64,000 nt of DNA. Source: Actinomycetota bacterium. Its GTDB lineage: Bacteria > Actinomycetota > Actinomycetes > Mycobacteriales > Pseudonocardiaceae. The notes under the pieces are model-generated. The model saw nothing but the letters and a program-made list of their open reading frames with translations, did no database searches and was not told the origin of the DNA. Positions 1-2,251 of this stretch are shown here, piece after piece. The stretch is from assembly GCA_021324675.1 (NCBI GenBank), contig JAJPIR010000278.1, forward strand, positions 1 to 64,000. The letters run 5' to 3'. The position numbers and the translations under genes are program-made. Position 1 is the first letter of the stretch. Each line of letters starts with the position of its first letter.

Positions 1-159
1 GGCGCTGCTCCAAACAACGGACACTGGTGGAAGGCTGGTGTTCGCCACCTCCTGCGGTCACCAGAAATGTCGCGGAAGGCGGATTAAGGTTGAGGGCAAC
101 CCTCTAGCACTGCTGTCGCGCAGCTGCACACACTGTCGGCCACCGACGGAGGGTGTGCC

Positions 160-1086
160 GTGACTGCGCTGACGACGGACAATGTCACCTGGGGGATCAC
201 CGGGCCGGAATTCCTGGCTGCCTACGGGCTACTCTTTCTGGTTTCCCTTTGTGGGATCATGGTCTTGCGCTGGTGGCTTGCCGCCGTACCGGCCGGGGTG
301 GCGACGGGTAAATTGTGCGAGCAGCCATACGACATCGCCTACCTCAACGGCGGCCCCGGGCTGGCAGTGCTCTCGGCGCTGACCTCTATGCGAGCCGCTG
401 GCACGATCGTGGCCGAGGGGCGCGGGCGAGTGCGCGCCGGCCGGCCGCTGGGTGACGGCGCTGACGAACTGGAGCGCGCCATTCACCTGGCGGCGGTCGA
501 GCCCATCACCCGGCATGACCTGGTGACCAACCGGCTTGTTCGCCTGGCGCTGGACAGCTCCCACCAGCGGTTGGAAAGTGCTGGGTTGTCGCTGAGCGCC
601 CGGCAGCGCCGCCGGATCAAGCTTGCCGGGTTGTGGATGGTGGCCGTGGCCGCATTCGGCTTGGTGCGATTAGTGGCCGGGGCGGCAAACGGGGCAGCGG
701 TCGGCTACCTCATCGAGGAGCTGATCGTGGTCGGCATTGTCGCCACAATCCTGCTCTGCACGGCGCCAAGAGCAAGCCGGCGCGGTAACGCGCACCTGAA
801 GAGCCTTCGGGTGAAGCATCCCGAACTGGCCCCGCGGATGCGGGCGGACTGGCGGGCCTACGGGCCGGCCGTCGCTGGACTCGGTGTAGGAATTTTCGGT
901 GCCAGCGCGTTGTGGGCATCAGATCCCAACCTCGCCGCGGATATGTCGGTACCGGGCGGGCCGGGGAAACTCCGTTACCGCGCCGCGGGATACGGCGGAT
1001 GGGGAGCTGGCTGTGGCGGCGGGGGATCAGCCGGAAGCTGTAGCGGTGGTGGCTGTGGCGGCGGTTGTGGCGGCGGGGGTTGCTGA
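160..1086 (+). CDS. TIGR04222-like membrane protein with Gly/Cys-rich C-terminal tail
   Basis: 308 aa, TM segments; C-terminus GGWGAGCGGGGSAGSCSGGGCGGGCGGGGC; TGATG overlap with the downstream DUF692 ORF. Confidence 0.8.
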   Translation: MTALTTDNVTWGITGPEFLAAYGLLFLVSLCGIMVLRWWLAAVPAGVATGKLCEQPYDIAYLNGGPGLAVLSALTSMRAAGTIVAEGRGRVRAGRPLGDGADELERAIHLAAVEPITRHDLVTNRLVRLALDSSHQRLESAGLSLSARQRRRIKLAGLWMVAVAAFGLVRLVAGAANGAAVGYLIEELIVVGIVATILLCTAPRASRRGNAHLKSLRVKHPELAPRMRADWRAYGPAVAGLGVGIFGASALWASDPNLAADMSVPGGPGKLRYRAAGYGGWGAGCGGGGSAGSCSGGGCGGGCGGGGC

Positions 1087-1910
1087 TGTCCCCGCTACCG
1101 TGGTCAGGCCTGGGTCTGGGCTGGCGAGCGGAGATTTCCGGGCTGGTCTCCATGCTGCCCGGACTGCAGTTCAGCGAGGTGATCGCCGAGTCGCTGCGCG
1201 GCGGCGCGCCGCCACCGGCACTGGCCATCCTGCGCGAACGCGGGGTGACGGTGATACCGCATGGGATCTCCCTTTCGCTCGGCGGAGCCGAACCGGTAGC
1301 CCGCAAGCGGGTCGCGCACCTGGCAGCATGCGCTCAGCGGCTGCGCTCACCACTGGTCAGTGAGCACATCGCTTTCGTTCGCGCTGGCGGGATGGAAGCT
1401 GGGCATCTGCTGCCGGTCCCGCGGTCCCGGGAAGCCTTGGACGTACTGGTCCGCAACGTCCGCCAGGCTCAGCATCTCCTTCCCGTGCCGCTGGCACTGG
1501 AGCCGATCGCTGCGTTGTTCGACTGGCCGGACGACGAGCTCTCCGAGGCGGACTTCCTCGCGGAACTGCTGTGGCGTACCGACGCCTGGCTGCTGCTAGA
1601 CATCGCCAACATCTATGCCAACGCGGTCAACCGTGGCAGCGATCCCATGGAGCTGCTGGAGAAGCTACCGCTGGAACGGGTGGCTTATGTGCACGTCGCT
1701 GGCGGGGCCGAGCACGACGGCTTGTACCACGACACGCACACCCACGCCACGTCCCCTGCGGTGCTGCAGCTGCTTGCCGAGCTGTGTGCCCGGCACCGAC
1801 CTCGGGCGATCATGTTGGAACGCGATGGCGCCTACCCACCAGCGGCCGAGCTGTACGCGGAGCTGGACCTGATCGCCGACGCTGCCCGTCTTACCCGGAT
1901 CACGACGTGA
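1086..1910 (+). CDS. DUF692 / MNIO family (MbnB/TglH-like) multinuclear iron oxygenase
   Basis: GLGWRAEI, SEHIAF, LLLDIANIYAN, VHVAGG...HDTHTHATS, MLERDG motifs typical of DUF692; ATG at 1086 overlaps the upstream stop. Confidence 0.85.
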   Translation: MSPLPWSGLGLGWRAEISGLVSMLPGLQFSEVIAESLRGGAPPPALAILRERGVTVIPHGISLSLGGAEPVARKRVAHLAACAQRLRSPLVSEHIAFVRAGGMEAGHLLPVPRSREALDVLVRNVRQAQHLLPVPLALEPIAALFDWPDDELSEADFLAELLWRTDAWLLLDIANIYANAVNRGSDPMELLEKLPLERVAYVHVAGGAEHDGLYHDTHTHATSPAVLQLLAELCARHRPRAIMLERDGAYPPAAELYAELDLIADAARLTRITT

Positions 1911-2251
1911 GGGCCGGGACAGTGACACCCGTGGCGGGCGATCTAGCAGCCCGGCAGGCCGCGCTGGTCACCGCGCTGGTTGGCGGTGGGGAACTGCCCG
2001 ACGGGTTTGACCACACCCGGGTAGCGGCCGCACGGCGGGCGCTGCTCGTCAAGCGGGCCGGTGACGTCACCAAAGCCTGGCCGCTGCTTGCCACCTCTCT
2101 CGGGGACGCCTGGCCAGAGTGCTTCATCACCTGGGCGGCATCTCATCCACCGCGGTGCGCGCAGCGCGACGGGAAGAACTTCATTCGCCAGTGCTGCCCA
2201 CGACTTGCTCGGTTTCGGAGCGGGCACCGCCGCTGGTTCGGTTTGCCGTGA
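1907..2251 (+). CDS. SCO6045-like partner protein of DUF692 operon
   Basis: GTG at 1907 overlaps the DUF692 stop (GTGA); LAARQAALVTALVGGGELPDGFDHTRVAAARRALLVKRAGDVTKAWPLLA resembles SCO6045-type C-terminal domains. Confidence 0.6.
   Translation: MRAGTVTPVAGDLAARQAALVTALVGGGELPDGFDHTRVAAARRALLVKRAGDVTKAWPLLATSLGDAWPECFITWAASHPPRCAQRDGKNFIRQCCPRLARFRSGHRRWFGLP

Follow-up and report, generated by a model that had tools for sequence, protein, structure and literature searches.

The MNIO enzymes of the HvfBC and FonBC pairs form 5-thiooxazoles on Cys-Gly motifs and require their partner proteins to do so (PMC13419390, PMC13097082). In oxazolin biosynthesis it is the active iron state that requires the partner, and an engineered MNIO–partner fusion is highly active (PMC13419390). 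Here we describe a locus within a 64,000-nucleotide stretch of DNA (the window) from a member of the Pseudonocardiaceae (contig JAJPIR010000278.1 of assembly GCA_021324675.1). It resembles the captophorin, bufferin and oxazolin systems (HvfABC, FonABC, BufABC) in setting an MNIO and a putative partner beside repeated Cys-Gly motifs. It differs from them in having no Sec-type short precursor, no DUF2282 and no EGKCG repeats; its putative substrate is a 308-aa membrane protein, whose N-terminal helix we read as the first transmembrane (TM) helix of a multi-helix protein rather than as a Sec signal. The DUF2063-RRE partner (PME-type 1) of captophorins and bufferins has no counterpart either, as a genome-wide search returned no match to PF09836 and the third ORF of the locus is too short for an RRE. 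Methanobactin MbnABC shares the enzyme superfamily and the partner logic, whereas its precursor is a short free peptide.

The nearest described relatives are the TIGR04222–MNIO clusters of Antoine et al. 2025 (PMC12452194). There, Cys-tailed TIGR04222 proteins are predicted to be MNIO substrates with a periplasmic tail, and short DUF2063-like partners (PME-type 2) are reported in at least 10% of clusters, many clusters being without one. The substrate idea is therefore already published, and the window holds a further member of the predicted class, ordinary within it except for the bare Cys at the end of its tail. What we add is the constancy of the partner and its fusion to the MNIO, the tracking of tail and MNIO across genomes, the probable cytosolic placement of the tail and a second protein that carries it.

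A three-gene cassette at the start of the contig

The first base of the window is also the first base of the contig (G000:C8), and sequence further upstream lies outside our coverage. The three genes (Table 1) overlap at both junctions, as the sequence-only reading had claimed: the TIGR04222 stop and the MNIO start share 1 bp (TGATG), and the MNIO stop and the start of the third ORF share 4 bp (GTGA). TTG 1065 was rejected as the MNIO start in favour of ATG 1086, being merely the mechanical first start of the ORF listing.

Table 1. Features of the cassette in the window. dG values are on a membrane-insertion scale checked on glycophorin A and poly-Ala/Leu only.
Feature	Positions	Strand	Extent	Basis
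Likely ribosome-binding site GGAGGG	148..153	+	6 bases 5' of GTG 160	reading of the sequence
Membrane protein of 308 aa with a TIGR04222 domain, candidate substrate of the MNIO	160..1086	+	GTG start 160, TGA end 1086	
TM helix 1	202..282	+	residues 15-41	AF2; dG -4.3
Soluble domain, helices and beta pair	325..579	+	residues 56-140	AF2 secondary structure
TM helices 2 and 3	598..759	+	residues 147-176, 182-200	AF2; dG -1.5, -1.0
Short broken helices, marginal fourth TM segment	850..942	+	residues 231-261	AF2 breaks; dG +0.85
Disordered Gly/Cys tail, putative modification site	982..1083	+	34 residues, 5 Cys	pLDDT mostly <50
MNIO (DUF692) enzyme, 274 aa	1086..1910	+	ATG start 1086, TGA end 1910	
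Third ORF, helical protein of 114 aa, candidate partner of the MNIO (PME-type 2)	1907..2251	+	GTG start 1907	

HMM searches bore out two of the three family assignments that had been proposed. The membrane protein matches NCBIfam TIGR04222 with 128.4 bits against a curated cut-off of 43 (E=3.2e-37; residues 22-252 on model positions 2-229 of 229), and the enzyme matches Pfam PF05114 (MbnB_TglH_ChrH) over nearly its full length with 269.7 bits against 25 (E=3e-80), while the third ORF, assigned to a SCO6045-like domain in that reading, found no credible match in Pfam or NCBIfam, Pfam DUF2063 included. At the family threshold, the genome of the window holds one TIGR04222 protein, together with one MNIO. 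The best NCBIfam models for this MNIO are BufB and HvfB, and it falls below every equivalog cut-off; the MbnB model gives 28.6 bits against a cut-off of 325. Residues H59, H94, E139, D172, N175, H203, D216, H218 and E245 align with conserved His, Asp, Asn and Glu residues of 3BWW and TglH and, by that alignment, are its putative metal ligands. H59, H94, D172, N175, H203 and E245 are invariant across 29 sequences, three Hvf/Buf-like ones among them, in a pattern that fits 3BWW.

Beyond the TIGR04222 domain lies a low-complexity region, the 34-residue Gly/Cys tail, which ends in ...AAGYGGWGAGCGGGGSAGSCSGGGCGGGCGGGGC before the stop codon; the five Cys that had been pointed out in it are all seen in the translation. 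Four of these five are encoded by TGT. Slowing of translation by rare codons was set aside, as the family-wide excess of TGT (20% of tail Cys codons against about 11% in the remainder of the protein and in the MNIO) is too small to build on.

Elsewhere in the window, a stretch of about 39 bases (gagccacgactgagccgaaagatcggaccgcatcgacgt) is repeated almost perfectly in tandem at 2830-2905, across the end of an ORF of 125 aa (2466-2843) that matches no family.

Tail, MNIO and third gene recur together

A contig scan with the membrane protein of the window as query returned no relatives, and a scan anchored on the MNIO was used instead. It yielded 80 named loci, gathered through the MNIO alone and without regard to the tail, of which 68 are complete. 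A TIGR04222 gene stands upstream of the MNIO in 65 of the complete loci and is Cys-tailed in 64; at the 65th (L282), read as lacking Cys, a Cys tail is visible in the neighbouring frame. All three loci without TIGR04222 directly upstream belong to Rhodococcus. Reading out two of these revealed Cys-tailed TIGR04222 genes at a distance of about 6.5 kb upstream of the MNIO; in the third, a TIGR04222 cluster showing this tail pattern lies about as far away.

The tails are regular. An exact CGG end is found in 115 of 146 distinct homologous tails and the bare-Cys end of the window protein in three (its own included), the modal Cys–Cys spacing is 6, and Gly occupies the +1 position of 525 out of 641 tail Cys (82%). 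Given that gene order and tail recur in 64/68 loci, with these ends and this spacing, the cassette is not a product of chance. The sequence-only reading had staked its proposal on a conserved association of Cys tail and DUF692, and tail, MNIO and third gene do co-occur across many Actinomycetota. A conserved fourth gene was sought and rejected: conserved neighbours are almost wholly confined to the named loci, which are mostly from Micromonosporaceae, and resemble ordinary synteny. Around the cassette we found no further conserved gene common to different families.

A tally of 249 genomes of the order found both families in 93, TIGR04222 only in 15, the MNIO only in 4 and neither in 137. The TIGR04222 protein is Cys-tailed in 66 of 81 MNIO-adjacent cases versus 2 of 15 in MNIO-less genomes, a difference for which the raw Fisher value of 1.8e-9 is inflated by pseudo-replication and not readable as a probability. 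A tree of 117 domains provided four supported independent pairs, of which about 1.3 agree with the association and 0.3 oppose it; with shared ancestry removed, the association of tail and MNIO is not significant, four pairs being too few. Within Micromonosporaceae-type genomes (f15; this label, like 'Streptomyces-like' for f18 below, was given from resemblance to named loci) a Cys tail is present on 29 of 29 MNIO-adjacent copies and on none of 11 distant paralogues. Every one of 12 orphan Cys-tailed TIGR04222 copies sits in a genome with an MNIO elsewhere, and several MNIO-adjacent TIGR04222 paralogues have no Cys tail. Exceptions to the rule are L210 and L211 from MNIO-less genomes (family f16), soluble TIGR04222 homologues whose Gly-rich tails hold two Cys.

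Two further loci appear degraded. In a congener (G006, L093:4008-5638) a deletion relic retains an MNIO without its first residues, a partner split into two frames and a TIGR04222 frame from which the C-terminal half and tail are gone; nine other congeners checked gave no TIGR04222 match. In G484 (L237:3701-6193) the MNIO is spread over three frames and the TIGR04222 tail has one Cys. Both fit a joint loss of enzyme and tail, and draft-assembly or sequencing error could also account for them.

The third gene as a plausible MNIO partner

The third gene lies directly 3' of the MNIO in all 80 MNIO-anchored named loci. That it might be a truncated gene was rejected, versions of 105-125 aa being usual among relatives. 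Its AF2 model is all-helical (pLDDT 87). In each of the seven MNIO-bearing Streptomyces-like genomes (L230-L236), the corresponding domain is fused to the C-terminus of the MNIO through a low-complexity linker, a natural fusion that provides a Rosetta-stone link between the two. When the partner profile was aligned with four DUF2063 proteins (hhalign), it scored 23.8 against a maximum of 21.5 in 150 column shuffles, a weak resemblance, and the alignment covers the motif P..L..LG...F......P. Against the PDB, Foldseek returned four hits for the third ORF, none of them significant, with the methanobactin MNIO partner MbnC second (E=8.6), and the partner profile found nothing credible among PDB sequences. 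Taken together, the natural fusions and the weak DUF2063 resemblance make the third ORF a plausible MNIO partner.

It also corresponds to the partner type of Antoine et al., to judge from the example that they cite: their Micromonospora matsumotoense protein WP_091237309 has 158 residues, and the homologue directly after the MNIO at the M. matsumotoense locus (L274) has 158 aa when read from MSTPHP.

Membrane topology of the TIGR04222 protein

The AF2 model of the TIGR04222 protein has a mean pLDDT of 85.6, and Foldseek with the whole model returned chance matches only. By the order of its elements, the modelled soluble domain appears winged-helix-like; charge and the paralogues lacking TM1 suggest that it faces the cytosol. 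Across homologues, median dG values favour insertion of TM1 (-2.6), TM2 (-1.5) and TM3 (-2.3) but not of the fourth segment (+1.0), for which dG is below zero in only 12%. The region of this segment (residues 231-261) contains Gly247, invariant among homologues, and the near-invariant Asp255.

The N-terminus has a slightly negative net charge, the TM2 flank is near zero and the flank after TM3 averages +2.45, which taken alone is a moderate argument for the side on which the tail lies. A stronger one comes from paralogues that begin at the soluble domain or have no TM segment. Three Cys-tailed paralogues within the same MNIO operons (L062, L067, L071) and one orphan (L088) start at the soluble domain, and a hairpin of two helices is all that they have in the membrane. 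One Cys-tailed homologue (L092) has zero TM segments; the start codons of all five were chosen by us. On hydropathy, charge, these paralogues and the Arg-rich stretch of the Streptomyces-like anchor described below, we place the Gly/Cys tail on what is probably the cytosolic side, contrary to the periplasmic placement given by Antoine et al.

The DUF2207 membrane proteins offer a partial likeness, in that the C-terminal membrane domain of one matches the TIGR04222 model weakly. They differ in being longer and having an additional N-terminal domain, and the one example checked (L101) has neither a Cys tail nor a nearby MNIO.

Streptomyces-like genomes bear the tail on another protein

Beside the MNIO fusion of Streptomyces-like genomes, the TIGR04222 neighbour is Cys-less in four of five cases and absent in two genomes. 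A pattern search there identified an unannotated protein of about 75-110 aa with an uncharged N-terminus, a single TM segment, an Arg-rich stretch directly after it, a WW(A/D)GG motif and the same Ser/Gly/Cys tail, ...SSCGGGSSCGGGGGCGGGS. Above cut-off, neither Pfam nor NCBIfam offers a family of its own for this protein. We found it in 7 of 7 MNIO-bearing Streptomyces-like genomes (L363, L364, L365, L366, L367, L368, L369) and in 0 of 12 others, these being 11 in which no MNIO was found plus the genome of the window, which bears an MNIO and a TIGR04222 carrier; just one of these twelve genomes belongs to the same genus. The WW(A/D)GG protein is a candidate for a second putative substrate family, and if it is the substrate in these genomes, what the MNIO follows is the tail rather than the body of the TIGR04222 protein.

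Two short, apparently soluble proteins of Streptomyces-like genomes (L359:2658-2897 and L360:2269-2499) have a CxxC near the start and a Cys/Gly end, CCGGGCCG; we take their CxxC part to be an FmdB-like zinc ribbon.

Discussion

We consider it likely that the three genes form a modification cassette in which the tail of the TIGR04222 protein is the putative MNIO substrate. The third ORF would serve as the partner protein, and MNIO and partner would together oxidise Cys of the flexible Gly/Cys tail. Thiooxazole-type groups are probably the product, by analogy with the precedent of Cys-Gly substrates. With the three TM helices probably leaving the tail on the cytosolic face, it would be accessible to the cytosolic enzyme whether or not the protein has already been inserted into the membrane. 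The result would be a brush of modified Cys, tethered to the membrane and facing the cytosol, that may bind a soft metal such as copper.

It is conceivable, although we think it unlikely, that the tail is an MNIO substrate that ends up extracytoplasmic, its modification taking place in the cytosol and preceding its passage outward with the last helix, as bufferins are modified before Sec export. This would agree with the AF2-based topology of PMC12452194, and the marginal fourth segment (residues 231-254), with a dG of +0.85 for the window protein and under 1.5 for 65% of homologues, could span the membrane; that segment is, however, far from the hydrophobicity of TM1-3, and the AF2 model breaks it. 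The positive flank after TM3 opposite a slightly negative N-terminus, the Cys-tailed paralogues with a two-helix hairpin, the homologue with no TM segment and the Arg-rich stretch just past the single TM of the Streptomyces-like anchor all argue against an outside tail as well.

The Cys tails that persist in the MNIO-less L210 and L211, and the Cys-less paralogues in some MNIO operons, would suit an unmodified Cys-rich tail with a metal-binding or redox role, the MNIO and its partner acting on another target. We hold this to be improbable: the surroundings of the cassette offer no other gene conserved across families, the genes overlap translationally and the tail tracks the MNIO even on an unrelated anchor. 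Functionless low-complexity drift at a GC-rich gene end, already disfavoured, is barely credible, since the Cys content of the tail follows the MNIO, CGG ends and the regular six-residue spacing prevail, and the same end occurs on an unrelated protein family; its low complexity, and the Gly-rich ends of MNIO-less homologues (L091, L209), are what such drift would have in its favour.

Returning to the modified, cytosolic tail, we advance tentatively a broader proposal, which may or may not hold: that the Ser/Gly/Cys tail serves as a portable tag on the cytosolic side, modified by an MNIO and a DUF2063-like partner (in some genomes a single fused protein) whichever anchor bears it, mostly TIGR04222 and, in Streptomyces-like genomes, the WWAGG protein. 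The outcome would be a tethered intracellular metal-binding brush and not an exported RiPP.

The TIGR04222–MNIO clusters of Antoine et al. (PMC12452194) agree with our locus in families, gene order, Cys tail, substrate proposal and short PME-type 2 partner. The two accounts differ in partner frequency (at least 10% of their clusters versus 80/80 within the MNIO clade sampled here) and in the side of the tail (periplasm versus the cytosol that we favour). In the passages of that article that we searched, neither natural MNIO–partner fusions nor the Streptomyces-like alternative anchor came up.

If this account is correct, MNIO enzymes modify the ends of resident membrane proteins at the inner face of the membrane, and not only small exported precursors. 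Modified membrane proteins would then be a class open to testing, made up of a large actinobacterial family whose function is unknown, and an apparently simple experimental system for identifying the chemistry would be the fusion enzyme of Streptomyces-like genomes together with the short Cys-tailed protein that has a single TM segment.
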